The notes under the pieces were generated by a model, which ran no database searches, was not told the origin of the DNA, and saw only the letters and a program-made list of their open reading frames with translations. A stretch of DNA of 62,304 bases, taken from a virus. This document shows positions 4,617 to 62,304 of this stretch, piece after piece; within the stretch, counting starts at the first letter, position 1, and each line of letters opens with the position of its first letter. Location of the stretch: IMG/VR virus record IMGVR_UViG_3300035682_000035, positions 1-62,304 of that record; one strand, 5' to 3'. A program made the translations under genes and the position numbers.

Positions 4617-7100
4617 ATGGATATCGACAAGTCGCTCAACCAAGCCCCGCTAGGTATGTCCCCGATGATGTCGGAGATGGACGAAGGTCCAGACATCGAG
4701 ATTGAGATCGAAGACCCTGAGAGTGTTCGTATTGGCATGGATGGTCTAGAAATCGAGATCGACCCAGATGATGACGAGGGCGACTTTAACGATAACCTAG
4801 CTGAAGACTTGGACGAGAGCGTGCTTACAGAGCTTGCTGGCGACCTGCTTGGTGAGTTTGACGAAGATATCAGCAGCCGCAAGGACTGGATACAGACTTA
4901 TGTAGACGGTCTTGAGTTGTTGGGTATGAAGGTCGAAGACCGTACGGAACCTTGGCCCGGTGCATGTGGTGTACATCACCCACTGCTGGCCGAAGCGGTA
5001 GTTAAATTCCAAGCCGAGACTATGAGCGAGACATTCCCAGCCCAAGGGCCGGTGCGTACGCAGATAATCGGTAAAGAGACTATAGAGAAGAAGGACGCCG
5101 CTGCACGCGTCCAAGAAGATATGAATTACCAGTTGACCGATGTGATGGTCGAGTATCGTCCTGAGCACGAGCGCATGTTGTGGGGGTTGGGCCTTGCAGG
5201 TAACGCGTTCAAGAAGGTGTACTACGACCCATCACTCGGTCGTCAGGTTGCAATGTATGTAACTGCGGAAGACGTAGTTGTGCCTTATGGCGCGTCCAGC
5301 TTGGAAGTCGCTGAACGCGTCACCCACGTGATGCGGAAGACCCCGAACGAGCTTAAAAAGCTCCAAGCAAATGGGTTTTACCGTGATGTAGACCTACCAG
5401 AGCCCGTCAATTCGATGGATGAGGTAGAGCAGAAGATTTCGGAACAGCTTGGCTTCCGTGCAGAGACCGATGACCGGTACAAACTGCTAGAAATGCACGT
5501 AGATTTGGTCATTGAAGACGATGACTACCGTGACGAAGAGGAAAACAAGCTTGAAATAGCACTCCCATACGTTGTTACCATAGATAAAGAGACCGAGACG
5601 GTCCTATCTATTCGCCGGAATTGGAACCCCGATGATAAAAAGAAACTTAAACGCAATCACTTCGTACATTACTCGTACGTCCCGGGCTTTGGCTTCTACG
5701 CTTTTGGCCTTATTCACCTTATTGGTGCTTTTGCTAAGTCTGGTACCAGTCTTATTCGTCAGCTTGTCGATGCTGGTACTCTATCTAATCTCCCGGGCGG
5801 GTTCAAAACTAAAGGCTTGCGTGTCAAGGGTGATGACACCCCGATAAGTCCTGCTGAATGGCGCGATGTAGACGTCGCTAGTGGTACAATGCGTGATAAT
5901 ATCATGCCACTACCCTACAAGGAACCTTCACAGGTTCTTTACTCCCTTCTTGGTACTATTGTAGACGAAGGTCGTCGCTTCGCTGGTATGGCGGACATGA
6001 AGGTGTCTGACATGTCTGCACAGGCTCCTGTGGGCACCACACTAGCTATTCTTGAGCGTACGTTGAAGATGATGAGTGCCGTGCAGGCACGTGTCCACTA
6101 TGCGATGAAGCGCGAGTTCCAGCTTCTTAAGGGCATCATACGCGACTACACACCAGATGCGTACAGCTTTGAGCCAGAAGAAGGCGGTCGTAGGGCCAAG
6201 AAGTCTGACTACGACAACGTAGATGTTATTCCTGTATCTGATCCTAACGCTGCCACTATGGCGCAGAAGATTGTACAGTATCAGGCTGTTATCCAGTTGG
6301 CACAGGGCGCGCCGCAAATCTACGACCTGCCCTATCTACACCGTCAGATGCTTGAGGTGCTAGGTATCAAGAACGCGCAGAAGCTCGTACCACTCAAAGA
6401 TGGTGACGACATGAAGCCGCGTGACCCTGTGTCAGAAAATATGGACATCATTAACGGTAAGCCCGTTAAGGCGTTTATCTACCAAGACCACGAAGCACAT
6501 ATCATGGTGCACACTACCGCAATGCAAGACCCTAAGATTATGCAGCTTCTGGGCCAGAACCCTAATGCACAGTCTATGATGAGTGCAATGCAAGCGCATA
6601 TAGCTGAACACCTTGCGTTCGAATACCGTAAGCAAGTCGAAGCACAGGCCGGTGTACCGCTGCCACCACCAGAGGCAGAGATGGACAAAGACACCGAACT
6701 GGCTGTCTCCCGTCTAGCTGCACAGGCAGCGCAACAACTGCTCCAGAAGAACCAAGCCGAAGCTGCACAGCAGCAGGCACAGCAGACAGCGCAAGACCCA
6801 ATCGTCCAGATGCAGATGCAAGAGCTGGAGATTAAGAAGGGTGAACTCGAACTCAAGCGGCAGAAGATGCAGATTGACGCCGCAGAGAAGAACGACCGAC
6901 TCGAGCTAGAGATGGCGCGTATCGAGTCGCAAGAAGAGATAGCTGGCCTAAACGTCGGCGCAAAACTTGCCACTTCCAAAAGTCAAATGGAAGCTAAGCA
7001 GGAAGCAGAAGGACTCCGCATGGGTATCGAAATTGCCCGTGAAGCCCTCCAAAGTGAACAACCCGTTCCCAACCAAGCAACGCCCAAGGAGAATGAATGA
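4617..7100 (+). CDS. Portal protein (P22/T7-like, 827 residues)
   Basis: A large portal of the kind found in short-tailed phages. The first 80 residues are extremely acidic. The body contains the typical clip and stem region (RNWNPDDKKKLKRNHFVHYSYVPGFGFYAFG, given here in two overlapping stretches: RNWNPDDKKKLKRN and HFVHYSYVPGFGFYAFG) and the GAFAKSGTSLIRQLVDAGTL helix. The C-terminal 150 residues are Gln- and Ala-rich and form a long coiled coil comparable to portal barrel helices. It forms the dodecameric vertex ring through which DNA enters and leaves. The start directly follows the preceding stop. Confidence 0.92.
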   Translation: MDIDKSLNQAPLGMSPMMSEMDEGPDIEIEIEDPESVRIGMDGLEIEIDPDDDEGDFNDNLAEDLDESVLTELAGDLLGEFDEDISSRKDWIQTYVDGLELLGMKVEDRTEPWPGACGVHHPLLAEAVVKFQAETMSETFPAQGPVRTQIIGKETIEKKDAAARVQEDMNYQLTDVMVEYRPEHERMLWGLGLAGNAFKKVYYDPSLGRQVAMYVTAEDVVVPYGASSLEVAERVTHVMRKTPNELKKLQANGFYRDVDLPEPVNSMDEVEQKISEQLGFRAETDDRYKLLEMHVDLVIEDDDYRDEEENKLEIALPYVVTIDKETETVLSIRRNWNPDDKKKLKRNHFVHYSYVPGFGFYAFGLIHLIGAFAKSGTSLIRQLVDAGTLSNLPGGFKTKGLRVKGDDTPISPAEWRDVDVASGTMRDNIMPLPYKEPSQVLYSLLGTIVDEGRRFAGMADMKVSDMSAQAPVGTTLAILERTLKMMSAVQARVHYAMKREFQLLKGIIRDYTPDAYSFEPEEGGRRAKKSDYDNVDVIPVSDPNAATMAQKIVQYQAVIQLAQGAPQIYDLPYLHRQMLEVLGIKNAQKLVPLKDGDDMKPRDPVSENMDIINGKPVKAFIYQDHEAHIMVHTTAMQDPKIMQLLGQNPNAQSMMSAMQAHIAEHLAFEYRKQVEAQAGVPLPPPEAEMDKDTELAVSRLAAQAAQQLLQKNQAEAAQQQAQQTAQDPIVQMQMQELEIKKGELELKRQKMQIDAAEKNDRLELEMARIESQEEIAGLNVGAKLATSKSQMEAKQEAEGLRMGIEIAREALQSEQPVPNQATPKENE

Positions 7101-7291
7101 CAAATGAGTTACTGATGTACCTGTCAAAAAAGGTACAAGATGAGATTGACGTAATTAGCGGCGACCTCGCCCGTGGCACTGCAAAGGACCATGGGGAATA
7201 TAAATATGCCTGCGGAATTATTCGCGGACTTATGATGTCAAACGGTTTCATCGCTGAAACCGCACAAAGAATGGAACATGACGATGACTGA
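7097..7291 (+). CDS. Small conserved head-region protein
   Basis: A 64-residue protein overlapping portal by 4 bases and the GroES-like gene by 14. It contains GDLARGTAKDHGEYKYACGI, a segment I associate with small genes just downstream of portal in many podovirus genomes. Its function is unknown. The position suggests head assembly. Confidence 0.7.
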   Translation: MTNELLMYLSKKVQDEIDVISGDLARGTAKDHGEYKYACGIIRGLMMSNGFIAETAQRMEHDDD

Positions 7292-7724
7292 AGAGGACAA
7301 TACTCTCCCCGTACTACCAGAGATTTTTCTGGCTACGGACGTAAATAACATCGAGGACGCAACAGTCCTACCCGACACTGACGATAAGAAAGCCAAGCAG
7401 CTTCCAGACCCATCAGGCTATCGCATATTGTGTGCTATCCCTGAAGTCGAAGACAAGACCGCTGGCGGTATCTTCAAGGCCGACTCTACCAAGCAGTATG
7501 AAGAACTCACTACCCCAGTGCTTATGGTGCTTAAGATGGGTCCAGATTGCTACAAGGACGAGAAACGTTTCCCGTCTGGCCCATGGTGCCAAGAAGGTGA
7601 CTTCATTCTGACCCGCCCAATGGCAGGTAGCCGTGTGAAAATTCACGGTCGTGAGTTCCGCCTAATCAACGACGACAGTGTAGAAGGTGTTGTTGAAGAC
7701 CCACGGGGTATTTCCCGCGCTTAA
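7278..7724 (+). CDS. GroES-like co-chaperonin
   Basis: A 148-residue protein whose residues from about 45 onward fit the Cpn10 fold. PSGYRILCAIPEVEDKTAGG matches the first strand and the TAGGI mobile loop that docks on GroEL. VLKMGPDCYKD corresponds to the VxAVGPG turn, EGDFILTRPMAGSRVKIHG to the VGDxVLFxKYAGTEVKxxG strand pair, and a VEGVVED end matches the oligomer strand. The first 40 residues are an acidic extension. Phage co-chaperonins such as T4 gp31 adapt host GroEL to fold the capsid protein, and the position between portal and scaffold fits that role. Confidence 0.8.
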   Translation: MTMTEEDNTLPVLPEIFLATDVNNIEDATVLPDTDDKKAKQLPDPSGYRILCAIPEVEDKTAGGIFKADSTKQYEELTTPVLMVLKMGPDCYKDEKRFPSGPWCQEGDFILTRPMAGSRVKIHGREFRLINDDSVEGVVEDPRGISRA

Positions 7725-7753: not shown

Positions 7754-8704
7754 ATGACCATGCAGAATGATGACTTCGAGGATTTTTCCTACGAAGTCGA
7801 AGACGAAACCCCCGTTTCTGAGGCTAATACGCCCGAAATTGAAATTGAAGATGATACCCCTGAAGCAGATCGTGGCCGTGAGCCAATGCCGAAGGAACTT
7901 GTTGAAGAACTGGAAGCTGATGAGCTCGAAGACTATTCCGACAAGGTAAAGACACGTCTGAAGCAGATGAAGAAAGTCTGGCATGACGAGCGTCGTGAAA
8001 AAGAACGCGAGATGCGTGAAAAGACAGAAGCTCTTTCTGTTGCGCAACGTATTCTTGAAGAGAACCGCAGGTTAAAAAATACACTAGCACAGGGCGAACA
8101 GTCGCTAATTGGTAGCTATAAACAAACTGCGGAGTTTGAGGCTGCTGCAGCCAAACGTGAGTTTAAAGAAGCCTACGAGTCAGGTGATGCAGACCGTCTA
8201 GCAGACGCTCAAGAGAAGCTTGCTGAAGTTAACTACCGGATGCAGCAAATAAATAATTATCGTCCTACTTTACAGGAGGAAGATAAGGAGGTAGAAATAC
8301 CTCAACAGCAGGTGCAAATTCCGCAGCCTGACCAGAAAACTATGGCGTGGCAAGAGCGCAATACGTGGTATGGTACAGACCCGGAAATGACCGCAACTGC
8401 TCTTGGGCTTCACCAGAGGCTCATAAATGAACGTGGCCCGCAGTTTGCAGGCACCGACGAATATTGGGGCGTTGTAGACAAAACTATGCGCCGTCGCTTC
8501 TCCGATTACTTCGGAGATGAAATGGATTACGGTGACACCAAGCCCGCTGCACGCGAACAAAAAGCGTCATCGGTCGTTGCTCCAGCCTCACGAACACGGT
8601 CCCCCAAAAAGATTGTGTTGAAACAGTCCCAGTTGGCAATCGCAAAACGTCTAGGCTTAACAGCTGAACAGTATGCCCGTGAACTAGTGAAGATGGAGAA
8701 TTAA
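7754..8704 (+). CDS. Putative scaffolding protein
   Basis: A 316-residue protein with a very acidic N-terminus, a long charged coiled coil (about residues 55-150, rich in Glu, Arg, Lys and Gln) and a basic C-terminal segment (PKKIVLKQSQLAIAKRLGL). This composition and the place between portal and capsid genes are those of phage scaffolds, whose basic C-terminus binds the coat. It has a strong AAGGAGAAG ribosome-binding site, as expected of an abundant assembly protein. Confidence 0.75.
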   Translation: MTMQNDDFEDFSYEVEDETPVSEANTPEIEIEDDTPEADRGREPMPKELVEELEADELEDYSDKVKTRLKQMKKVWHDERREKEREMREKTEALSVAQRILEENRRLKNTLAQGEQSLIGSYKQTAEFEAAAAKREFKEAYESGDADRLADAQEKLAEVNYRMQQINNYRPTLQEEDKEVEIPQQQVQIPQPDQKTMAWQERNTWYGTDPEMTATALGLHQRLINERGPQFAGTDEYWGVVDKTMRRRFSDYFGDEMDYGDTKPAAREQKASSVVAPASRTRSPKKIVLKQSQLAIAKRLGLTAEQYARELVKMEN

Positions 8705-8705
8705 A

Positions 8706-9182
8706 ATGACTGATATTATTGACGCCCTAGAAGGTAAATCGGGTTTGACCCGCGCCCCTCGTGAAACTCGTGCAGAAGCTGAACGTCCTAAAGTATGGCA
8801 ACCGGCATCGACCCTGCCAGAACCGGACAAGCAAGCTGGTTATGCGTATCGTTGGATACGTGTAGCATCAATGGGCCAAAACGACCCTCGCAATATCTCG
8901 TCCAAACTACGGGAAGGTTGGGAGCCAGTTAGCATCAAGGAACAACCTCAGTTCCAGATGTTGGTAGACCCTGATAGCCGTTTCAAAGACAACATCGAAG
9001 TCGCAGGACTGTTGTTGTGCAAGGCACCGGAAGAACTGATGCGTCAGCGTAAGGAATACTTTGCTGCTAAAAATCAGTCTCAGATGGACTCCGTGGACAA
9101 TAACTTCATGCGTGAGAACGACGCTCGTATGCCACTCTTTAGGGAAAAACGGTCTACGACGTCATTTGGCAAAGGCAAATAG
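8706..9182 (+). CDS. Conserved head-cluster protein
   Basis: A 158-residue protein of unknown function starting one base after the scaffold stop. The central part (YAYRWIRVASMGQNDPRNIS, then REGWEPV) is well structured and the C-terminus is charged. Similar proteins sit between scaffold and coat genes in related podovirus genomes (from memory). A minor head or assembly role is likely. Confidence 0.65.
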   Translation: MTDIIDALEGKSGLTRAPRETRAEAERPKVWQPASTLPEPDKQAGYAYRWIRVASMGQNDPRNISSKLREGWEPVSIKEQPQFQMLVDPDSRFKDNIEVAGLLLCKAPEELMRQRKEYFAAKNQSQMDSVDNNFMRENDARMPLFREKRSTTSFGKGK

Positions 9183-9198: not shown

Positions 9199-9816
9199 AT
9201 GGCATACCCTTCTGTTACCAGCCCTTACGGGCTAATCCCGATCAATTTGATCGGCGGACAGGTTTTTGCTGGTGCTACTCGTCAACTTCCAATCGCGGTT
9301 AACTCCTCGACTGCCATCTTCTATGGTGACGTCGTTAAGTTGCTCGCAGGCGGTACTGTTGGCAAGGACACTGGTACAGACTCGGCCACCCCTGTCGGTG
9401 TTTTCCTCGGTTGTACCTATACGGACCCAACCTTTGGTTTGACATTCCGTCAGTACTACCCCGGCACCACGAGCATCAGCGACATCACAGCATACGTTCA
9501 GGAAGACCCTGATGCGTTGTTTAAGGTTGCTGTATGCGCTGGTACCAACTCGAACACCGTTAGCTACCTCACTCAAGCCGCTGTTGGCTCGAACGTGAAG
9601 TTGGCAAATGGTGCGAACAACGTAGGTTCAACTGCGACTGGTAACTCTAAGGTCGGTGTTGACTCGACTGAAGGTACTACTTCGACGTGGCCTATCCGCG
9701 TTGTGGACGTTGTCCCTGAAACTGCTTTGGCAGGTAGCCCCGGTTCTTACACCGAAGTTATCGTCAAGTGGAACCAAGGCACCCACAGCTACCTCAACCC
9801 AACCGGTCTGGCATAA
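9199..9816 (+). CDS. Putative capsid decoration or structural protein
   Basis: A 205-residue beta-rich, Gly/Thr/Val-rich protein with low charge. It has a strong ribosome-binding site (AAGGAGCTAT) and lies 12 bp before the coat gene. The sequence (YPSVTSPYGLIPINLIGGQV, TPVGVFLGCTYTDP) is of the type annotated as virion structural protein next to Mu-like coats. It could decorate the capsid surface. No lytic or enzymatic motif is visible. Confidence 0.65.
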   Translation: MAYPSVTSPYGLIPINLIGGQVFAGATRQLPIAVNSSTAIFYGDVVKLLAGGTVGKDTGTDSATPVGVFLGCTYTDPTFGLTFRQYYPGTTSISDITAYVQEDPDALFKVAVCAGTNSNTVSYLTQAAVGSNVKLANGANNVGSTATGNSKVGVDSTEGTTSTWPIRVVDVVPETALAGSPGSYTEVIVKWNQGTHSYLNPTGLA

Positions 9817-9828
9817 GGAGACTGAACA

Positions 9829-10740
9829 ATGGCAATTTCACGCGCACAACTTCTTAAAGAACTGTTGCCCGGACTGAACGCTTTGTTCGGCCTTGAGTAT
9901 GCACGTTACGGCGAAGAGCACAAAGAAATCTACGAAACAGAGACTTCTGAGCGTTCTTTCGAAGAAGAAACCAAGCTGTCGGGCTTCTCGGCTGCTCCGG
10001 TTAAGAACGAAGGTTCGGCCATCGCGTATGACAACGCACAGGAAGTCTTCACCGCTCGCTACAACCACGAAACGATTGCCCTCGGGTTCTCGCTGACGGA
10101 AGAAGCGATTGAAGATAACTTGTACGACTCCTTGTCGTCGCGTTACACGAAGGCACTGGCTCGCGCCATGGCTTACACCAAGCAGACCAAGGCTGCTGCA
10201 ACCCTGAACAATGGCTTCGACACCGATTATCCCGGTGGCGACGGCGTTCCATTGTTCTCGGCTTCACACCCATTGGTTTCTGGTGGCACGAACTCGAACA
10301 TCCCAAGCACTCCTGCTGATTTGAACGAAACGTCGCTTGAAGCGGCTGTAATTCAGATTGCAGCGTGGACGGATGAACGTGGCCTGCTCATCGCGGCTAA
10401 ACCGCGTAAGCTCGTCGTACCACCAAGCCTGATGTTTGTTGCTACTCGCTTGCTCGAAACCGAACTTCGCGTTTCGACTGCGGACAACGACATCAACGCA
10501 CTGAAGTCAAACGGCTCGATCCCAGAAGGATACGCTGTAAACCACTTCTTGACCGACACGGATGCTTGGTTCTTGACCACAGACGTGCCAAACGGTCTGA
10601 AGCACTTTGTTCGTACGCCAATGGCGACGGGCATGGACGGTGACTTCGATACTGGTAACGTACGTTACAAGGCTCGTGAGCGTTATTCGTTCGGCTGGTC
10701 AGACCCTCTGGGTATGTACGGCAGCGAAGGCGCAGCCTAA
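9829..10740 (+). CDS. Major capsid protein (Mu gpT-like)
   Basis: A 303-residue protein resembling the Mu-type major head subunit. It has an N-terminal helical arm, a central segment (RYNHETIALGFSLTEEAIED, then YTKQTKAAATLNNGF), the typical GVPLFSASHPL phrase before a variable loop, and RKLVVPPSLMFVATRLLETE in the HK97 core. It has a good AAGGAGACTG ribosome-binding site and an intrinsic terminator just downstream, as expected for the most abundant structural gene. Confidence 0.88.
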   Translation: MAISRAQLLKELLPGLNALFGLEYARYGEEHKEIYETETSERSFEEETKLSGFSAAPVKNEGSAIAYDNAQEVFTARYNHETIALGFSLTEEAIEDNLYDSLSSRYTKALARAMAYTKQTKAAATLNNGFDTDYPGGDGVPLFSASHPLVSGGTNSNIPSTPADLNETSLEAAVIQIAAWTDERGLLIAAKPRKLVVPPSLMFVATRLLETELRVSTADNDINALKSNGSIPEGYAVNHFLTDTDAWFLTTDVPNGLKHFVRTPMATGMDGDFDTGNVRYKARERYSFGWSDPLGMYGSEGAA

Positions 10741-13473: not shown

Positions 13474-14553
13474 ATGGCACGTACGATGAAAAAGTTCTCA
13501 GCCGGTGGCGCACAAGGTCGTTACGACCGTCGTATGGCAGATATCGAAAAAGACTACGCAAATGCTATGAAGCGTAAGACGGGTAAGGCTGCTGAAGTAG
13601 CTGATGCAAAGCGCCAGCAGCGCATTGCTGACGCCAAGGATGATCTTGCCAAGCGCACAGGTGCTGATCGTACAGCTACTCGCGCCGCAGAGCGTACCGC
13701 AGAAAGCAACCTCACAAAGACCCGCAAGTACGGCGCACCACAGTCGGTAACTAAAGATACCGCTGGGCCTACAGGGAAAGTCACAGACACCCTAGGTGCG
13801 TTAACTGCGCCTAAGTCGGACCTCGCTACCGCTGCTAAGAAGCCTGTACAGAAGCCCGTACAGAAGCCTGTACAGAAACCAAATATCGACAACCCGTCTA
13901 TGTCTAGCACTCGGGCACGGCTGGAAGCAGGGCGCGCCGATTTCCGTAAGCAGCAGCAAAACCGTCGTAAAATAGCAGCAGCAGCTGAAAAAGAGCCTGT
14001 TACTAGGATGGACAGGAAGGCTTTCGACGACTTGAAAACCGGTAAAAACAGCTATGGAGCTGCTAACCTCGGAAAGTCACGCGCACCTGCCGCTTCATCG
14101 GCGTTGATGGCACCAAAGGGTTCTACGTCACGTAGCGGCTCTTTAGGCGACATATTCAAAACATCTGACGCCTACAGAAAGTCACAGGAAGCTAAATACG
14201 GTAAAGCCAAAGGAGGCAAAATTATGAAATACGCTAAAGGTGGTTCGGCATCTTCGCAACCAATGCCGCCGAAGAAAAAACCAAAAGAGCCGATTACGGG
14301 TGGTGCAAACACCGTGCCGTTGACCCCAGAGCGTAAAGAGTTTCTTAAGGAACTGGCAAAGCGCAATGCTAAGCCGGGTATGGCGAAAGGCGGTAAGGCA
14401 ACTAAGTTCGGCGCTGCTATGAAGAAGAAGTCAGCCGACACTAAGGGTCGTGCAATGATGAAGTTCGCCAAGGGCGGCTCCATCGACGGTTGTGCTGTCA
14501 AAGGCAAGACCAAGACTTCGATGGTCAAGATGAAAAACGGCGGCTCCTGCTAA
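13474..14553 (+). CDS. Large basic repeat-containing protein with multiple KGG motifs
   Basis: A 359-residue Lys/Arg/Ala-rich protein predicted to be largely disordered. It contains a three-fold KKPVQKPVQKPVQKP repeat near residue 130 and, in its C-terminal third, MKYAKGGS, GMAKGGKA, MKFAKGGS and MKNGGSC. It lacks recognisable enzymatic motifs. High charge and position among virion genes suggest a DNA-associated or internal head protein. Confidence 0.6.
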   Translation: MARTMKKFSAGGAQGRYDRRMADIEKDYANAMKRKTGKAAEVADAKRQQRIADAKDDLAKRTGADRTATRAAERTAESNLTKTRKYGAPQSVTKDTAGPTGKVTDTLGALTAPKSDLATAAKKPVQKPVQKPVQKPNIDNPSMSSTRARLEAGRADFRKQQQNRRKIAAAAEKEPVTRMDRKAFDDLKTGKNSYGAANLGKSRAPAASSALMAPKGSTSRSGSLGDIFKTSDAYRKSQEAKYGKAKGGKIMKYAKGGSASSQPMPPKKKPKEPITGGANTVPLTPERKEFLKELAKRNAKPGMAKGGKATKFGAAMKKKSADTKGRAMMKFAKGGSIDGCAVKGKTKTSMVKMKNGGSC

Positions 14554-33935: not shown

Positions 33936-36900
33936 ATGCCTGATGTACGCATGCCCGACGGTACAGTTATAAGAAACGTACCAGCAGGAATTACTAAGGC
34001 ACAGCTTAATGCTAAGCTAACGAAGAACGGGTTTGACCTCAACAGGCTGACCACGCCTAAGCAGAAGCCAAGCGCAATTGAAAATATCCCGCTAGTAGGC
34101 GGATTGCTTGCGCCTATTGCAGACATACCCTTGAGTGCGGTCGAAGGTTTAAGCGGCACTACCAAGTCAATCGCAGATGTGTTTGGTGCCGACAATGTTG
34201 TATCCGATGCGGCTGACTATGTAGCTAAAGCAGCGGCTGCTTTGAAATCTGCTGGGTCTCGTGAAGATGCTGAAATCGCCAGTAAAATCCAGAAAGACGC
34301 TGAAGGCAAAGGTGTCTGGGAAGAAGTAAAGGCTGCAGCTAGGGCGTTCACTTACTCTCCACTAGAGAGCATTGCCAGCGTGGCAGGTTCGGCGGCACCG
34401 TTTATCGCAGCGGGTGTTGCCACCGGAGGTACAGGAGCCGTACCCCTAGCTACTATGGCTGGGCTTGGCGCAGCGTCAGGCGCAGGTACTATAAAAGGTT
34501 CCGTGTACGATGCGGTATACAGCGAGTTCGTAAAGAACGGTGCATCTGAAGAAGACGCCGCTGCCGCCGCCGAGAAGGCGCAGGAGTATAGCGGCAAGAA
34601 TATAGACCAGATTGCACTTGGTGGTGCCATAGGCGCACTTGCTTCGGCTACTGGCTTTGGCCCGCAGTTCGCTCGCAGCATAGGTAATAACGTAGTCAAG
34701 AAGGTTGCCGCCGAGGTAGCCGAGCGTGAAGCTGTAGAGGCCGTAAAGGTCGGTGCCAGAAAGAGCGTGCTGGGTGGTGTTGCCAAAAGTGCAGTTGTAG
34801 AAGCTGTACCAGAATCTGTACAAGGTGGGCAGGAAAAACTGTCCCAGAACCTAGCACTGCAGCGCGAGGGCTTCGATGTAGATACGTTTAGGGGTGTAGC
34901 TGGACAGGCTGCGTCCGAAGGCATCGCGTCCCTGTTTCTGGGTGGTTATGGTGGTGCACGTGCAGCAAAGGCGGAAAACCGTCAGATACTCACAGAAGAG
35001 ATTGCCCAAGAACTTGACGCCCTGCCTGCAGATGCAGACGAGCAAACTATATCTGAAGCAGAAGCTAGATTCGTCAAGCGCGGGTTTCCCTTGGAGAAGG
35101 CAACGCAAGTTGTCGAGAACTTAAAATCCGCCAAAGAAGCTATTGACAAGCAAGCTGCAGAACTAGAGCGGGCACGTGCCGAACGGATGGCACAAGGAGA
35201 AGCTGAAGCAGCAGCCGAAGAAGGCACAGGCTCTAACTTTACTGGCCCGCCTCCGGTTGATACCGAAGAAGAAGCTGCCATGCAGCGCATGCGTGAGGCC
35301 GAGTTTGCAGGTGCAGGTGCACCACAGCAACGTAAACCATCTACTATAGAGCAAGCAGCTATTGATCTTGTTTCTGCCGTTGACGCTGGCGGTGTGCCGT
35401 TCAACACACCTAGAATAAATGCGATTGGACGCGGACTAGGGCTTGATATCGGTAAAAATGATAAACCCGAAGCCACTATCGACCGCATCCGTGCAGCGGT
35501 TGGTCGGTTTGATTTTACTCCCCCAATCTCTGAAACACAGGATACTAACGCTCCCCCTACTGGTGGCGTCAACGCCCAGTACCGCCGTAACACAACCCAA
35601 CCCACTATTACGCCAGCATTTGCTGCGACTGCAAACGAAGATGAAGTTCGTGCATTTGCTGACCAATACGGTATCGACGAAGCAGAAGCCGTTGAGCGCC
35701 TAAGTGCGGCGGCTTCGTCACCTTCAGGCATTGTATACTCACGTAGAGGACGTCCACCCAGTGCGAGCACGGTAGAAGCTGCGGGCCAAGAAGGTCTATT
35801 CGGCGCACTGCCTACACAGGAAGAAAACCGCCTCGACAAGTTTGAGGAAATCCAGCAGCGCAAACTGGAGCAAGGTGCGCTTGCACCTGAAGACCGCGAA
35901 GCGGAAAATCAGGCACGTGCCGATGAGTTTGATAGGCTGCAGCAAGAACGCGCAGCGAAAGACGAGCAGTACACGGCTGACTTTGTAAAAAACATCGAAG
36001 ATGCCATTCGTCGCGCTAACCCTGCTAACGAAGCCTATAGTGTGCAGGTTGATGCAACCAGCCCGAAGCCTTACAGGGTTGTAGGTCCAGACGGAGAGTT
36101 GTTTGCAGCCGCAGATAACCTGCAGGACTTTGAAGCACAGGCGATGGACCTTCTTCCATACGTTGCTCCCCCTACATCTATTCAAGAGACGGACTCCGCG
36201 AACCCCACCGTGGCTACATCCATGGTGCAGGAACTTACCCGTGATATTGATGCTGCGCGTGAGCGTGGCGAGATAGACAACAACCAGCGCACCGAGCTTA
36301 TTCGTCAGATAGAACGCCCCGACGCATACGATAAGTATGGTCGTCCGCAGGACAACATTGCCAAGGCTGAAGAAGAAGCCCGTGCAGCAATGTCCAAGTT
36401 CCGCAACACCACAGGTGTTGAAGCCAAGGCAGCGGAAGCAGAGCTAGCCGTCGCCAACGAGAAGCTGACTAAGCTAGTAAACAACCGCATGCTGAACCCG
36501 ATCAGGTCTAAGCTGCGCTCCATGGCAGAGAACCGTCAGCTTGAGCGCGAAGGCGCTACATCCCGTGTGGGCAGCGCTAAGGTGCAGCAGAAGCTAGGCG
36601 AGATGGAAGGTGCAGACACCAGTGCCGAGCAGCGCGAACAACGCGAAGCCAAAATCGACATAGCCGAAGGCCGTGTATCTAAGTACCGTAGGGGTGAAGC
36701 GCAACCGGGCCAAGTTAAGACAGACGTATCTAAGGTACGTGCAGCGGTAGATGCCATCGTGTCAGTATGGAAGGGGCCACCTGTAGTTACGGTAGTCCAG
36801 TCTGTTAACGACATAGCTGACGCTAAGGTACGTCGGGCTGTGATGCAAGATAACGCTACCAATGCAGAAGGCTTCGTGGCCCCTGATGGTACAGTGTATC

Positions 36901-39900
36901 TAATTGCCGACAACCTTGAGTCCGTAGAGCGTGCTAAGGCGGTGCTGTTCCATGAAGCTCTTGGCCACGTTGGCCTTGAGAAGCTGTTCCGTGGCGAGCT
37001 AGATAGCGCTCTGACTGCACTGTATAAAAGCAACGGTAACATACGGGCCAATACCGATGCGTGGCTAGCTGCTAACCCAGATGCCTATGCGCAGGATACC
37101 AACCGTACCGCCCGCGCAGTAGAAGAAATCCTAGCCGAGATGTCCGAGAATGGGCAGCTTAGGCCGACAATGCTAAAGCGCATTGCAGCTATTATCCGTA
37201 ACTTTGCACGTAGGCTGGGTATCAATCTGGCAATCAGCGATGCGGACGTAGAAGCTATACTGGCTGCAGGCCACGAGCGTGTCGTAAACGGTGCGCAGGA
37301 AAGCACACTCGTCAAGGGCATGCGGTATATTAACGGCTGGCGTGGTGGTGCTGCACCTACCACAAAATACTCACGGCCCAAGACCACTAAGCAGAACAAA
37401 GAGAAAATAGGAACTGCTGAAGCTAGTATAAGTCCCGGTATGCGCCGTACCCAGAAGTCTACCTCCACTAACGGCATAGCTGAAGGTGTAGAGCAGGTTG
37501 TTAAGGGGCATAGCTGGAAAGACTGGGGCGGTGGGCTAAAGGATAACCTAGAGGCCATGGCACCACCTACCTTGGTGGCCACGCTAAAGACTATACCGAC
37601 GTCTGGCATCTTAAACTGGTTCGGCCCAGATATACCCACCATACGTGAGATTGACACGTTGGTGCAGAAGATGGTTGCCATGAAGGCCAACATACTCAAA
37701 GCTGCAGAGCAAATTGGTATGGAGTTAGACGAGTTCCTTCTGTCTGATAAAGACCAACTACTGGCCCAGACGCAGAGCACTGCCCGTATAAATGAAATGG
37801 CACCCGACGATTTCAAGTCTGCTGACGATGCACTGGCTAATCACCCTGCCATGAAGGAGGTCGAAGCTCGCATACTGAAGAACGCCAACGATAAGGTGTT
37901 AGCTGCCCGTATAATAGCCGAGGTAAAAGCCTTGGTTATGCAGAGCAAAGACGCAATCACCGTAAAGGGTGACAAGGTAGCTATGTCTACCGCTATGAAG
38001 AAGTTGGTAGCGAACCTATCTAAGACAGCCATAGATAGCAAAAATACCAGTGACCAGATGAAGCAGATAGCGGAACTTACCCGTCGTATCCGCGATACAC
38101 ATGCTTTGTGGGACAAGCTAGGTGAGCTTAAGAACGGGCACAAGCTATACAAGGAAATACGTTCCTACTACAAAGATATGTTCGAAGCCGAGCTTGCACT
38201 ACTAGACGGTCGGATTGCGTCTATCGCCGGTACTAAAGAAGCCAAGCGTTTGCGTGACCTACGTGCAGATATGATGCGGGAAGTTATGAACCCCGATGAA
38301 TCCAAGAAGGGCGGCGACATATTCTACAATCTTGACTCAAGCTTGTTCACCAAAGACTACTTTCCGTTTATGCGGGCAGGTAAATACTACATACGTGTAT
38401 CCGCTGCCAAGGACGGCTCGCGGGAGCGTGAGTTCTACCAGTTCGAAACTGCCAAGCAGCAAATAGCTGCGAAGAAAGCGATAGCTAAGCGCTTAGGTAT
38501 AGACCCTGAGAAGAACGATGGGGTACTTACTATAGGGTACGACGTCGCACAGTTGCAGGAAGAATTAAAAACTGACGACCAGATGATGAAGAAGATATTT
38601 GACCTAGTGGGTAAAGCCAAGGCCGAGTTTGCTTCAAGTGGTGTACTAGGTGCCAGCGACTTCAAAGACCTGACGGACAGCATCTACCAGACATGGTTGC
38701 TATCTACCCCCGAACGGTCAGTACGCCGCCGGTTCATGCATGCTCAAGAGGTAGTCGGGTTCCAGCAGGATATCCTACAGAACTTTGCATCGCAAGCGAG
38801 CAGCTATGCTAACCAACTAAGCAAGCTGGCATACGCCGGGGACATACGCTTAAAAACCGAGGAGGCACGTGACAACGTGTCGGACCGCCCAACTACAGAG
38901 CAGGCTAGACTTAAAGCCGCTATATATGAATTAGAACAGCGTGCCGAAGACGAGATAAACCCAAGCCCGCAGAGTTCGTTTATTAACGCCCTTAACCGTG
39001 CGTCTTACTTCTACTACCTGACAGCGCCAGCGACAGCGATGCTGCAGCTTACTTCCATACCGATACGTGTGGTGCCACGCCTGTGGCGGGATTACGGGTA
39101 TGCGGAAGGCACCCGCATGTGGCTGAAGTATATGAAGATATGGAACACTCTAGGTAAAGCTAAGGTGCAGAGCACTCGCACAGGGATAGCCGGTGTGGGT
39201 GACTCGCTTGATGTCCTGATGCCCAACATACTAAGCTCTAAATTGGTTAGTGCTGACACCAAAGAAGGTAAACTTCTACGTAGGGCACTGGCGGCAGGTA
39301 TGGAGCGCAACGTGCTTGAGACCGTGCAGGATACACTAATCCAGAACGAGCGGGAAACAGGACAGAAGCACCGTACGGGTGCAGCGCGCACCGTTGCCGA
39401 AACTGCTGCGGTAACAGGTAAAGCCATGGGCGTCATGTTCCAAGGGTTGGAAAACATCTCACGCCAAGCAGCCTACTTCATGGCGTTTGAGTTAGCGTAC
39501 AAGGCAGAGACTGCTAAAAACCCCGGCGCACCTGAGAAGGTAGTGTTTGATAAGGCAGTCACCACTGCCCTAGATACTGTGCGCGATACTCTTGGTGACT
39601 ACTCCAACTGGGAACGTTCACGCATAATGAAGAACGATGTGTCTCGTGCACTGTTCCTCTTCAAGATGCATCCCATTCTGCAGACTAAGTTCCTAGTAGG
39701 CGCGATGCGAGATATCGGGCGTGGGTTGTACCCCGGAGCTTCACCAGAAGCAAAGGCCGCACGTGCGGGCGCTATGAAGGAACTAGGCGGCGTCTTGATG
39801 ATGGCTGGCGTATTTGGTGGCCTTCTAGGTATGCCCCTGTACTCGGTCATGGCACTGGCGCTATCTGAAAGCTTTGACGAAGAAGATGATGAGGATGTGC

Positions 39901-40718
39901 GCAAGCTTATGGGTCTTGACCCACGTGTCGCCTACGACTCCGACATTATGTTCCGTGCATGGTTGATGGATAAGTTCGGAGAGCCGATGGTTGGCGACGT
40001 GTCGTTGGCAGACATTCTTATACACGGCCCGCTTGGCGCTTTATCGAACACTGAACTGTCTAGCCGTACATCACTCGACCTCAAGAATATGTGGTTCCGC
40101 GAAGCAGTTGCAGGTGACTCCACTGGTGACAGCATAATAAAAACACTGCTGGCTAACGTAGCAGGTGGGCAGATGCTTATTCAGGCGTTCAATGCAAAGG
40201 ATAACTTTGCTGAAGGCGATATGTATGGTGGTATCAAGAAGATGGCACCTGCGTTTGTTCGGTCATGGGTAGCAGCGGAGCAAGGGGAAGCCGAAGGTGT
40301 GGTTACCCGCAAGGGTGATGTCATTATAGATAAGAACGATATCACTGGGTTGGATACGTTCCGCACGATATCTGGCTTCCGACCACTGCGTCTTGCTAGA
40401 TGGCAGGACTACTACATCACTCGTAGTAAGAACGACAAAAAGATAAAGGCGGAGAAGACCCAGCTGCTATCCACCTTGGATAGGAAGCTACGTGAGGGTG
40501 ATATTACTTCTAAGGAGCAACTACAGGAGTTCATCACCGACGAGGTTATTCCGTTCAACCGCACGTACCCAGACCCAAGCTTCATAATTACCGAAGAGAC
40601 CATCATGCGGTCACTCAAGGGTCGTGCGGATGTACGGGGCCGCACAGTGCAGGGCATGCGGCTTGAGAAGAAGACTGCAGAGAAAGATATCGGTATGGCA
40701 GATAAGTTCCGCCCATAA
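33936..40718 (+). CDS. 2260-residue polyvalent virion protein with zincin motif
   Basis: The largest gene. The N-terminus reads PDVRMPDGTVIRNVPAGITK, a start seen on other large phage internal proteins. Gly/Ala-rich membrane-prone segments occupy about residues 45-70 and 130-230. A metalloprotease motif HEALGH lies at 1006-1011, with candidate third ligand Glu1063 or Glu1064 (AVEEILAEM). A region near residue 1680 (ASYFYYLTAPATAMLQLTS) resembles the LPD38 domain of polyvalent proteins. Another hydrophobic segment lies near 1950. It is probably ejected into the host with DNA, with several activities. No RNA polymerase motif was found. Confidence 0.8.
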   Translation: MPDVRMPDGTVIRNVPAGITKAQLNAKLTKNGFDLNRLTTPKQKPSAIENIPLVGGLLAPIADIPLSAVEGLSGTTKSIADVFGADNVVSDAADYVAKAAAALKSAGSREDAEIASKIQKDAEGKGVWEEVKAAARAFTYSPLESIASVAGSAAPFIAAGVATGGTGAVPLATMAGLGAASGAGTIKGSVYDAVYSEFVKNGASEEDAAAAAEKAQEYSGKNIDQIALGGAIGALASATGFGPQFARSIGNNVVKKVAAEVAEREAVEAVKVGARKSVLGGVAKSAVVEAVPESVQGGQEKLSQNLALQREGFDVDTFRGVAGQAASEGIASLFLGGYGGARAAKAENRQILTEEIAQELDALPADADEQTISEAEARFVKRGFPLEKATQVVENLKSAKEAIDKQAAELERARAERMAQGEAEAAAEEGTGSNFTGPPPVDTEEEAAMQRMREAEFAGAGAPQQRKPSTIEQAAIDLVSAVDAGGVPFNTPRINAIGRGLGLDIGKNDKPEATIDRIRAAVGRFDFTPPISETQDTNAPPTGGVNAQYRRNTTQPTITPAFAATANEDEVRAFADQYGIDEAEAVERLSAAASSPSGIVYSRRGRPPSASTVEAAGQEGLFGALPTQEENRLDKFEEIQQRKLEQGALAPEDREAENQARADEFDRLQQERAAKDEQYTADFVKNIEDAIRRANPANEAYSVQVDATSPKPYRVVGPDGELFAAADNLQDFEAQAMDLLPYVAPPTSIQETDSANPTVATSMVQELTRDIDAARERGEIDNNQRTELIRQIERPDAYDKYGRPQDNIAKAEEEARAAMSKFRNTTGVEAKAAEAELAVANEKLTKLVNNRMLNPIRSKLRSMAENRQLEREGATSRVGSAKVQQKLGEMEGADTSAEQREQREAKIDIAEGRVSKYRRGEAQPGQVKTDVSKVRAAVDAIVSVWKGPPVVTVVQSVNDIADAKVRRAVMQDNATNAEGFVAPDGTVYLIADNLESVERAKAVLFHEALGHVGLEKLFRGELDSALTALYKSNGNIRANTDAWLAANPDAYAQDTNRTARAVEEILAEMSENGQLRPTMLKRIAAIIRNFARRLGINLAISDADVEAILAAGHERVVNGAQESTLVKGMRYINGWRGGAAPTTKYSRPKTTKQNKEKIGTAEASISPGMRRTQKSTSTNGIAEGVEQVVKGHSWKDWGGGLKDNLEAMAPPTLVATLKTIPTSGILNWFGPDIPTIREIDTLVQKMVAMKANILKAAEQIGMELDEFLLSDKDQLLAQTQSTARINEMAPDDFKSADDALANHPAMKEVEARILKNANDKVLAARIIAEVKALVMQSKDAITVKGDKVAMSTAMKKLVANLSKTAIDSKNTSDQMKQIAELTRRIRDTHALWDKLGELKNGHKLYKEIRSYYKDMFEAELALLDGRIASIAGTKEAKRLRDLRADMMREVMNPDESKKGGDIFYNLDSSLFTKDYFPFMRAGKYYIRVSAAKDGSREREFYQFETAKQQIAAKKAIAKRLGIDPEKNDGVLTIGYDVAQLQEELKTDDQMMKKIFDLVGKAKAEFASSGVLGASDFKDLTDSIYQTWLLSTPERSVRRRFMHAQEVVGFQQDILQNFASQASSYANQLSKLAYAGDIRLKTEEARDNVSDRPTTEQARLKAAIYELEQRAEDEINPSPQSSFINALNRASYFYYLTAPATAMLQLTSIPIRVVPRLWRDYGYAEGTRMWLKYMKIWNTLGKAKVQSTRTGIAGVGDSLDVLMPNILSSKLVSADTKEGKLLRRALAAGMERNVLETVQDTLIQNERETGQKHRTGAARTVAETAAVTGKAMGVMFQGLENISRQAAYFMAFELAYKAETAKNPGAPEKVVFDKAVTTALDTVRDTLGDYSNWERSRIMKNDVSRALFLFKMHPILQTKFLVGAMRDIGRGLYPGASPEAKAARAGAMKELGGVLMMAGVFGGLLGMPLYSVMALALSESFDEEDDEDVRKLMGLDPRVAYDSDIMFRAWLMDKFGEPMVGDVSLADILIHGPLGALSNTELSSRTSLDLKNMWFREAVAGDSTGDSIIKTLLANVAGGQMLIQAFNAKDNFAEGDMYGGIKKMAPAFVRSWVAAEQGEAEGVVTRKGDVIIDKNDITGLDTFRTISGFRPLRLARWQDYYITRSKNDKKIKAEKTQLLSTLDRKLREGDITSKEQLQEFITDEVIPFNRTYPDPSFIITEETIMRSLKGRADVRGRTVQGMRLEKKTAEKDIGMADKFRP

Positions 40719-56173: not shown

Positions 56174-57361
56174 TTAGTTGATATGTATTGTCTTGCCTGT
56201 TGATGCGACCATCTTGCCACCGCCTGTGATTACCCACAGTATCGGTGCGCCATTCCAGTCCGAACCCCAGTTAGGCACGAACCCGTCTGTGAACATGATG
56301 ATGCAGTCGGCCTTGATATCCTGCTCCTTGAGGTATTGCTCCATAGCGCCGGGGTTCGTACCACCCCCACCTACTGGCTTAGTGGAGTTACGGAATGACC
56401 CGCGTGTCGAGTCATCATACACTTCATGCCCTGCCATGGTGTGGTCCCAGTAGATGATGTGTAGCTTGTCAGGCGTAACCACAGATAAGATAGCGTCAGT
56501 CTCCGACAGGTTCCGTGTGTGGTCCTCGTTTGTGATGGACCCAGACGTATCACAGCCAATCACGATGTTTTTCACGCGCTCACCGACGAGGCTGGGCATG
56601 ATAGTATCTGATGATAGAAACCTACGGTTTGGTTTGCGCCACGATGAGTAGTCACGGCCAGCACAGGTAGTGTTGACGAACTCCTGTAACAGCGTACGCC
56701 AGTCTACCTTGGGCTCGAGGATGTCCGACAACTCACGCGACATACCACCAGCACCTTTGCCGTGCATCTTCTGTGCAGCAATCATACCCTGACGGATAGC
56801 TTGGTCTACTTGCTTAGACAGCTCTTCCTTCTCTTCCTTGGTCAGTTCGCTAGCACCTTCCCAGTCATGCTCGTCGAAGCCACCGCTGCCGCCACCGTCA
56901 CCGCCTTCTTGCTTCTCCTTCTTGAGAATGTCGAACACCTGCTTGGTATTCATACCTGCGAACCTGCGGTCTATAAGACCTGCTGGCTTACCATCCTTCT
57001 GCGGCATAGCTACCACCGTGCCACTCGGGTCACGGGTGATAATCTCTAGGTTGATGACGTAGTCACAGGCCATGTTAGTTAGCTGTGCGTCCTCCTGCCA
57101 TAGCTTCTGCCATGTAGTTAGGTGGCGATACATCTTGTGGAATGACTCATGCACCACGACGAAAGCTACCTCTGGTATGGATAGCGCGTCGATGAAGGCG
57201 CGTCCGTATATCTCGTCACGCCCGTTAGTAGCTGCGGTTGGTGTGGTCTCACACACCTCCTTCGTGCCCATCATGAAGATGCCGGACATGTCTGCGAACA
57301 ACGGGTTACGCATGAGGTCGATTACCACACGTGTTAGTTTACGCTCGGCTGTTAGTGCCAT
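56174..57361 (-). CDS. VWA protein with metallopeptidase-like N-terminus
   Basis: A 395-residue protein of DUF2201 type. The N-terminal region has VHESFHKMYRH with His71, Glu72 and His75, a zinc-peptidase motif. A Gly/Ser linker follows residue 150. The C-terminal von Willebrand A domain contains the MIDAS start GCDTSGS (near residue 270) and later DCIIMFTDGF. It likely binds and is remodelled by the MoxR ATPase upstream. The target in the cell is unknown. Confidence 0.85.
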   Translation of the reverse strand: MALTAERKLTRVVIDLMRNPLFADMSGIFMMGTKEVCETTPTAATNGRDEIYGRAFIDALSIPEVAFVVVHESFHKMYRHLTTWQKLWQEDAQLTNMACDYVINLEIITRDPSGTVVAMPQKDGKPAGLIDRRFAGMNTKQVFDILKKEKQEGGDGGGSGGFDEHDWEGASELTKEEKEELSKQVDQAIRQGMIAAQKMHGKGAGGMSRELSDILEPKVDWRTLLQEFVNTTCAGRDYSSWRKPNRRFLSSDTIMPSLVGERVKNIVIGCDTSGSITNEDHTRNLSETDAILSVVTPDKLHIIYWDHTMAGHEVYDDSTRGSFRNSTKPVGGGGTNPGAMEQYLKEQDIKADCIIMFTDGFVPNWGSDWNGAPILWVITGGGKMVASTGKTIHIN

Positions 57362-57521
57362 TAGCTTGCTCCTTTAGTCTGTTAGTTGCGTATACGTATG
57401 CGCTTAGCTCGTCGGGGTGGTCGAAGAATGAAACGTGCATGACTTTGCGATTGGATAGATTAACCTGCCATATCGACCAAATCTCACTACGCTTCACATC
57501 CACCACGTGAAGCCCATCCAC
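57339..57521 (-). CDS. Small protein between MoxR and VWA genes
   Basis: A 60-residue protein starting in a TAGTG overlap with the MoxR stop and overlapping the VWA start. It has DVKRSEIWSIWQVNLSNRKV and SFFDHPDELSAYVYATNRL. Tight coupling suggests it is expressed with the complex, possibly as an adaptor. Function unknown. Confidence 0.6.
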   Translation of the reverse strand: MDGLHVVDVKRSEIWSIWQVNLSNRKVMHVSFFDHPDELSAYVYATNRLKEQANGTNSRA

Positions 57522-58594
57522 TAGAGGATGTCCACGTTAGCCAATGCCCAGTCGCGGAACTTAGTAGACGTAAAGCCAATCTGCTTCTTGTCTGGGTTCT
57601 TACACAGGTTGACTGCGAACACAGCTTGCCACTCTGGTGCCATGCGCTCGACATACTCCATGAACGGCGTGATTGTATTGCGGTCAATCTTGGCAATCGC
57701 ACCGAACACCATGACTGCGCATGCGCCGGGACTCTCGGGCAGCTTGGCCTTGGCTGGGTCCTTAGTGATGTCGTCCCACGTAGGTAGCTGGTCTTGATAC
57801 TCTACGAAGGCATGCATGTCCCGCGCAGCGGACTCACCGATTGTACCCACCATGGCTGCGAGTAGCGCGTTGGCTGTCAGCTTCTCACGCTGCTTGAGTA
57901 CGTCGTTAGACGCAAGCTGCAACGACCGACCTGATACGAAGCTACCCTGCTGCCGCTTGGGGTTGAAGATATACGGATTACTCTCTTGGTCACCGTCCAT
58001 GTATGATGCCATGGCATGCGGGAACTGATTAACCCAAGCCATGACAACGGGGTCGATGTCGTTAGTAACTGCCCATGCCAACCACTCGTCTGCGTCTGGC
58101 TTGCGCACCGTAACCGTAGTTACGCGGTTGCGTGTATGTGGCTTGACTGTATCGCCAAGACCTTCGCCTGCCATGTTGCCAGTCATAAGCACGATGGAAC
58201 CATCGCGCAGCACGTTGTTACCTAGCCGTGGCTTGCGCGACTCCAGCAGAGGGTGAAGCATATTCTGCACAGGCTGCGGTGCCTTGGTGAACTCGTCTAG
58301 CATGATAACCACAGGCTTGCCGGACTGTATCTGGAAGATAGCGTTAGCGAAGTACTCGGTTATCTGCTTGTCACGGTTGATACTCGGCATGGCGATGTCG
58401 CCAAGGTCGGCTTGTGCGCAGTCAAAGTATGCGTAGGCGTATGCGTCACCGAAGTGCCGCTCCAGTGCGCCCATGATGGATGACTTGCCAATCCCAGGCT
58501 CACCTTGAAGGAAGAACCGATTGTTAGGGCAGTTGATGATAAGGCTTGCAGCTTCTGCAAGTGACACAGTTGTGCCGAAGTTTAATGCACTCAT
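57521..58594 (-). CDS. MoxR/CobS-like AAA+ ATPase
   Basis: A 357-residue ATPase. Walker A is GEPGIGKSS (31-39, Lys37), Walker B VVIMLDEF (Asp100, Glu101), and LMTGNMAGEGLGDTVKPHTR carries sensor 1 and arginine-finger-like residues. The C-terminal half is the usual helical lid region with QQGSFVSGRSLQLASN. MoxR enzymes work with VWA partners to remodel proteins or insert metals. It heads a transcription unit with its own promoter at 58686-58714 and an operator at 58614-58629. Confidence 0.88.
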   Translation of the reverse strand: MSALNFGTTVSLAEAASLIINCPNNRFFLQGEPGIGKSSIMGALERHFGDAYAYAYFDCAQADLGDIAMPSINRDKQITEYFANAIFQIQSGKPVVIMLDEFTKAPQPVQNMLHPLLESRKPRLGNNVLRDGSIVLMTGNMAGEGLGDTVKPHTRNRVTTVTVRKPDADEWLAWAVTNDIDPVVMAWVNQFPHAMASYMDGDQESNPYIFNPKRQQGSFVSGRSLQLASNDVLKQREKLTANALLAAMVGTIGESAARDMHAFVEYQDQLPTWDDITKDPAKAKLPESPGACAVMVFGAIAKIDRNTITPFMEYVERMAPEWQAVFAVNLCKNPDKKQIGFTSTKFRDWALANVDIL

Positions 58595-62177: not shown

Positions 62178-62304
62178 TGTTGACTTACCTGTTTTTGGAC
62201 GTTAGGTTGAGCTCAACCTAACGGTCGAGGCGCTCACCCAACCAGTTAGCTCAGACGCTCACCCAACCAGTTAGCTTCTACTATCACCGCAAACTATCAT
62301 GACT
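62178..62304. repeat. Second copy of the contig-end repeat
   Basis: This is the exact copy of bases 1-127. The palindrome, tandem repeat and first iterons described near position 1 therefore appear a second time here and should be counted once in the real genome. Confidence 0.9.

Follow-up and report, generated by a model that had tools for sequence, protein, structure and literature searches.

The stretch of DNA analysed here (the window) comprises the whole 62,304 nucleotides of the IMG/VR virus record IMGVR_UViG_3300035682_000035. A direct terminal repeat of 127 bases was found at positions 1-127 and 62178-62304, and the record is therefore probably a complete genome. The head module is arranged in the order terminase, small ORF, portal, an ORF of 64 aa, Cpn10/GroES-like co-chaperonin, scaffold-like protein, two further ORFs, and coat. 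The portal gene (4617..7100, + strand) was assigned by PHROG 1216 (E 5.5e-22) and is followed by the 64-aa ORF (7097..7291, +), which overlaps the start of the Cpn10 gene (7278..7724, +) and occupies the same place in relatives. Downstream of Cpn10 lie a putative scaffold-like gene (7754..8704, +; PHROG 28737, no known function), two conserved head-module ORFs (8706..9182, +, recognized by PHROG 36003 and synteny, and 9199..9816, +, by synteny), and, as the fourth gene, that for a major coat protein of the Mu gpT type (9829..10740, +; 303 aa, 33 kDa; Pfam PF10124, E 9.6e-10, and PHROG 371). Direct comparison of this coat protein with Mu gpT by blastp gave a weak match (E 0.001).

The scaffold-like product was predicted by AlphaFold2 to contain a helix of 81 residues (residues 63-143; pTM 0.32), which fits, rather than proves, a scaffolding function, and its gene directly follows Cpn10 in 79 of the 80 best-scoring IMG/VR relatives, the sole exception (L074) being a sequence that stops 59 bases past the Cpn10 gene. 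The original prediction had placed the co-chaperonin between portal and scaffold; the portal side holds through PHROG 1216, the scaffold side draws on position and the predicted helix, and the 64-aa ORF intervenes. The window genome carries one Cpn10 gene, and a Cpn60/GroEL gene was found in none of 16 records (the window genome and 15 related ones). Elsewhere in the genome, a DUF2201 metallopeptidase/VWA-like gene adjoins a MoxR-like AAA_5 ATPase gene in the early region (56174-58594, - strand), forming a pair of the MoxR-VWA type; a 2260-aa ORF giving no Pfam match (33936-40718, +) suggests by its size and place a very large virion or ejection protein; and a basic protein with repeated MKxAKGG-like motifs and no PHROG match is encoded among the small ORFs after the coat gene (13474-14553, +).

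The Cpn10 gene encodes 148 aa, or 146 aa when read from the second ATG at 7284. The latter may be the true start, because a Met at residue 3 is common to 75 of the 80 best-scoring of at least 600 relatives, residue 1 being gapped in 70 of these 80. Residues 45-138 of the product match Pfam PF00166 (Cpn10) with E 2.2e-5 and 24.9 bits, above the curated cut-off of 21.1, and the product matches PHROG 3188, 'co-chaperonin GroES', with E 3.7e-12. An AlphaFold2 model was built on a 70-row alignment; the ten-residue blocks of residues 1-40 had mean pLDDT values of 45-62, and those from residue 41 onward values of 79-96. In this model the beta-barrel of the Cpn10/GroES family does form. The top Foldseek matches in the PDB were all Cpn10/GroES (best E 1.9e-6), and the closest viral structures carry the annotation 'Co-chaperonin GroES, uncultured virus'. 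Alignment by VIA-align gave Z 10.1 for 8wuc_a (rmsd 3.0 over 91 residues), with Z values of 8-10 for GroES chains, 7.5-8.0 for gp31, and at most 5.8 for unrelated rows of the alcohol-dehydrogenase type. The Cpn10 pattern on which the original prediction was founded, including the mobile-loop sequence KTAGGIF (residues 60-66), is thus borne out by profile matches and by a predicted fold that matches solved GroES chains, and the protein is confirmed as a Cpn10/GroES homologue. Twelve relatives were compared for dN/dS, of which four were saturated; against the eight with measurable dS, dN/dS of the core was 0.04-0.13, a range indicative of strong purifying selection on the gene.

The acidic N-terminal extension (residues 1-40; 7278..7397, +) has a net charge of -7 and a pI of 4.05, is predicted to be disordered, and falls largely in gapped alignment columns. 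Among the best 80 relatives it varies in length, and the part that is conserved is its end, at about residues 36-43 (E36-x-K-A-x-Q-L-P43, with D36 in the window protein). Among the matches listed, the extension had a median length of 30 aa in the window branch, 26 aa in the CRP-902-type and 19 aa in the Caulobacter-type sequences, with a median charge of -3 in each of these three; in the MW202796-type sequences the medians were 3 aa and 0. With its charge of -7, the window protein marks the extreme of its branch, in which charges span -7 to 0 (n=78 among the matches listed). The extension was originally singled out as unusual; it does exist, is acidic and is about 40 residues long, but as a defining oddity of the protein it was dropped, since length and charge differ between branches. 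The roof segment (G88-G107; 7539..7598, +) has 20 residues, compared with 19 in E. coli GroES, and was 20 residues long in 78 and 19 in 2 of the best 80 relatives, across which its motif RFPxGPWC is near-invariant. The aromatic residues and the cysteine of this motif are presumably absent from the roof of E. coli GroES.

A co-chaperonin had further been called uncommon in a short-tailed phage of this size, and this does not hold. At least 600 relatives of the window Cpn10 were obtained in one scan. Marine et al. reportedly described virioplankton chaperonins, that is, viral chaperonin genes in aquatic viruses, in 2017. GroES is listed among the 13 core genes of HTVC023P-type podoviruses in 82 genomes (Wittmers et al., PMC9599517); it is annotated also in CRP-901-type phages (PMC10149686), with which the sequence records agree, and in the record of DSL-LC04, whose paper (PMC10611076) does not name it in the text. 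With this core-gene status, and with universal presence in the related lineages tested, a Cpn10 gene is ordinary for the lineage. Phages carrying both the Cpn10 and the coat are recorded from SAR11, Roseobacter, Caulobacter and Alcaligenes, together with one metagenome virus assigned to methanogens. Some host records call for caution. Ten loci found by a scan of genome contigs lay in MAGs of unrelated phyla and are read as misbinned phage contigs. Pag-Yong1, MinM2 and Pra-JY27 (OL906435.1, OQ594354.1 and PP438419.1; L001 region) were deposited with three different cyanobacterial hosts, and all are 65,014 in length and 100% identical over the compared stretches; the recorded hosts are therefore doubtful, and the three may possibly represent a shared contaminant phage.

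Linkage of Cpn10 to the coat type was examined in three sets of sequences. A tblastn search with the coat protein returned 21 phage records, and Cpn10 was present in 21/21 (15 by tblastn, some of them weak, and six by annotation or Pfam), although these records are not independent: the three just named are one genome over the compared stretches, four Caulobacter phages gave identical matches, and two Manatee Spring records are of equal length with matching annotation. Cpn10 lies between portal and coat in 18 of the 21. It lies outside that interval in vir526, a putative methanogen virus in which it is upstream of terminase (L092, 980-1336), and in MW202601 and MW202604, where it is two genes from an SSB gene (L094, 1700-2164, and L679, 1700-2164), so the linkage with the coat gene has exceptions. 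The coat of these relatives with Cpn10 outside the interval is divergent. Three distant coat queries then gave 240 viral loci, which are the best 80 matches per query and not a random draw; within these, Cpn10 was found in all 156 loci whose sequence extends 3.5 kb or more upstream of the coat (41/41, 42/42 and 73/73), 1.95-3.5 kb before it, and was visible in 37 of the 84 loci with a shorter upstream stretch. Pfam analysis of whole records detected Cpn10 in 40/40 records picked for length from the same 240. Since a Mu gpT query gave just 4 loci, an autographivirus coat served as the main control. By a purpose-built profile, Cpn10 was detected in 0/84 control loci, and it was found in 0/25 control records (23 of 80 HTVC019P-type, picked for length, and 2 of 4 Mu-like), including 0/2 whole records of Mu-type phages with a gpT coat. 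Judged from these sequences, the association of Cpn10 with the head genes is far stronger than chance would give, and the linkage of the gene to this coat type is near-obligate.

Inheritance of the head module as a block may account for part of this linkage. In its extreme form this would make the gene a passenger, held in place by tight packing of the head operon and having no head-related role, which is consistent with the tendency of head modules toward block inheritance and with the fixed order around Cpn10; the strong purifying selection, the invariant motifs, and the retention of Cpn10 even where it is located elsewhere (vir526, MW202601 and MW202604) make this highly improbable. The same three genomes would fit a phage lid that raised or redirected GroEL capacity for many phage proteins, the coat having no special need of it and the late module setting only the timing, and T4 gp31 does replace GroES for general folding in E. 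coli (PMC6318259). A general supply of co-chaperonin would, however, hardly be expected to follow one coat type in 156/156 loci and 18/21 records and to be absent from the control phages, and we regard it as unlikely.

The mobile-loop region (residues 55-80; 7440..7517, +) is 4 residues longer than the loop of E. coli GroES. The span C52-G88 has 37 residues in the window protein, a length constant among relatives, and its E. coli GroES counterpart has 33. The GroEL-binding tripeptide corresponds to I65-F66-K67 (7470..7478, +), with K67 at the place of GroES L27; this Lys directly after GGIF, which breaks the usual tripeptide, had been overlooked in the original prediction. Of the hydrophobic pattern I/L-x-L/I, position 1 is thus kept and position 3 is not. 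In the best 80 of the at least 600 relatives, position 67 was K in 80/80, and position 65 was I, L or V in 80/80. All 62 matches of a Pag-Yong1 query, a set overlapping that of the window, had K (43), R (5), L (10), V (3) or I (1) at position 3. The residue there was L in 80/80 of the best matches of HTVC023P; among the matches listed for the other types, it was L 59, I 1 and gap 1 in the CRP-902-type, L 65 and I 12 in the Caulobacter-type, and V 20, I 19, L 15 and gap 1 in the MW202796-type.

Cellular Cpn10 sequences were sampled from lists of three phyla, non-randomly, as 89 best-scoring loci and 60 hand-picked from lower ranks of the same lists. Position 3 was I or L in 89/89 of the former and L, I or V in 60/60 of the latter, many of which are divergent paralogues; K or R was found in 0/149. 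Many Bacteroidota and Actinomycetota genomes carry a second, divergent Cpn10 (40-60 bits) in which the aliphatic tripeptide is intact (L720-L737 and L703-L717). A tree was calculated from 85 representatives over 102 columns with the loop columns excluded, and many of its forks are unresolved. Apart from two long-branch rows, the phage sequences are united in a supported group of their own. The rows with K or R at position 3 cluster in a single supported set of 22 representatives, which includes one aliphatic (V) row, with one further long-branched K outlier beyond it, giving at least three changes at position 3.

The GroEL contacts of E. coli GroES are I25, V26 and L27, and binding was abolished by I25A, L27A, I25D and L27D, not by V26D, the Kd rising from 3.8 nM to more than 5 micromolar for the Ala forms I25A and L27A; the same paper gives Ile or Leu as the usual residues at positions 25 and 27, with Met at times (PMC5575113), and L27 is also covered in PMC3514286. 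Lys or Arg at position 3 is a clade-level change at a site that the literature treats as essential, and the gene that carries it is strongly constrained. No mention of Lys or Arg at this docking position was found in searches of an open-licence library. The change lowers confidence in ordinary GroEL docking and leaves the homology unaffected. The change implies that long basic side chains are able to dock, that the GroEL partner is a different one, or that the loop engages something else.

If the last were true, the barrel might have been repurposed in the window branch, no longer capping GroEL and instead acting in head assembly on portal, scaffold or coat. The basic residue fixed in the best relatives, replaced by R in the Pag-Yong1 branch, confined largely to one supported set and absent from the cellular sample, would suit such a role, as would the loss of binding seen on losing L27 and the strictly kept roof motif. 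Position 1 nevertheless stays aliphatic, the loop does not vary in length, and an aliphatic position 3 is retained by sister branches that share the gene order; from these it follows that the ancestral role of the loop was very probably docking, and a complete change of function appears improbable, somewhat more so than a general supply of co-chaperonin. A further proposal, which we put forward tentatively and hold to be possible rather than probable, is that in a large branch of aquatic phages the tripeptide was rewired to Lys/Arg and fixed, and that the protein docks unlike the cellular GroES examined, through another contact on GroEL, with lower affinity or on another partner, yet is obligate for the gpT-type head. 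A fixed Lys/Arg where Ala or Asp kills binding of E. coli GroES runs counter to the accepted docking rule and could reveal ways in which phages adjust or evade the chaperonin interface of the host, and the docking loop is the part most worth following.

The reading preferred for the gene as a whole, to which we give a probability of about 60%, is that the phage Cpn10 caps host GroEL late in infection and helps to fold the 33-kDa gpT-type coat and perhaps its head-module neighbours. The protein would be made late and would, as a heptamer, cap host GroEL; the capped chaperonin would then fold the coat, its likeliest client, and perhaps other head proteins. The longer loop and the Lys-ended tripeptide lead us to expect docking that is weaker or host-tuned, so that the phage protein may not be fully interchangeable with GroES. 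In the case of Mu, mutation of groEL or groES reportedly blocks the assembly of heads and tails (Grimaud and Toussaint, in 1998). In T4, gp23 needs gp31, and GroES is no substitute in its folding (PMC3012670). By analogy with these two precedents and given a coat of the gpT family, folding of the coat by GroEL under a lid that the phage supplies is probably the best-supported mechanism. Further points weigh against a coat-folding lid: K67 sits where L27A and L27D abolish binding of E. coli GroES; an ordinary GroEL-GroES cage is large enough for a 33-kDa coat, which leaves the need for a special lid less than obvious; and Mu, with its gpT coat, manages with host GroES. Because Cpn10 is tied to one coat type in essentially all relatives examined, whether this coat needs its own lid becomes a clean, testable question outside T4.

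T4 carries a phage Cpn10 and is not known to encode a GroEL of its own, and in this the window genome is like it, as it is in a loop longer than that of GroES and in a probable role in coat folding, the latter by analogy. The original prediction had likened the gene to T4 gp31, and the likeness can be kept for the role at most. In build, gp31 is described as having no roof loops, as serving a 56-kDa coat, and as having a mobile loop of 22 against 16 residues by that paper's own measure (PMC6318259). The window protein keeps its roof, its coat is 33 kDa, and its gene lies inside the head module; a gp31-type build, with no roof loops and a wider cage, was thus ruled out by the roof length, and enlargement of the cage for a large coat by the size of the coat. 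With bacterial GroES/Cpn10, the window protein shares the PF00166 match, the predicted barrel fold, the GGI loop motif and a similar roof length, and it differs in the acidic extension, the 4 additional loop residues and the Lys at the place of L27. Its nearest known counterparts are the homologous GroES proteins of HTVC023P (gp36), HTVC027P, DSL-LC04 and Pag-Yong1, with 39-51% identity. In HTVC023P-type phages, GroES likewise lies between the portal and a homologous gpT-like coat, the same head-module setting as in the window, and the residue at position 3 sets them apart: Leu in the HTVC023P-like proteins, Arg in the Pag-Yong1 branch, and Lys in the branch of the window.
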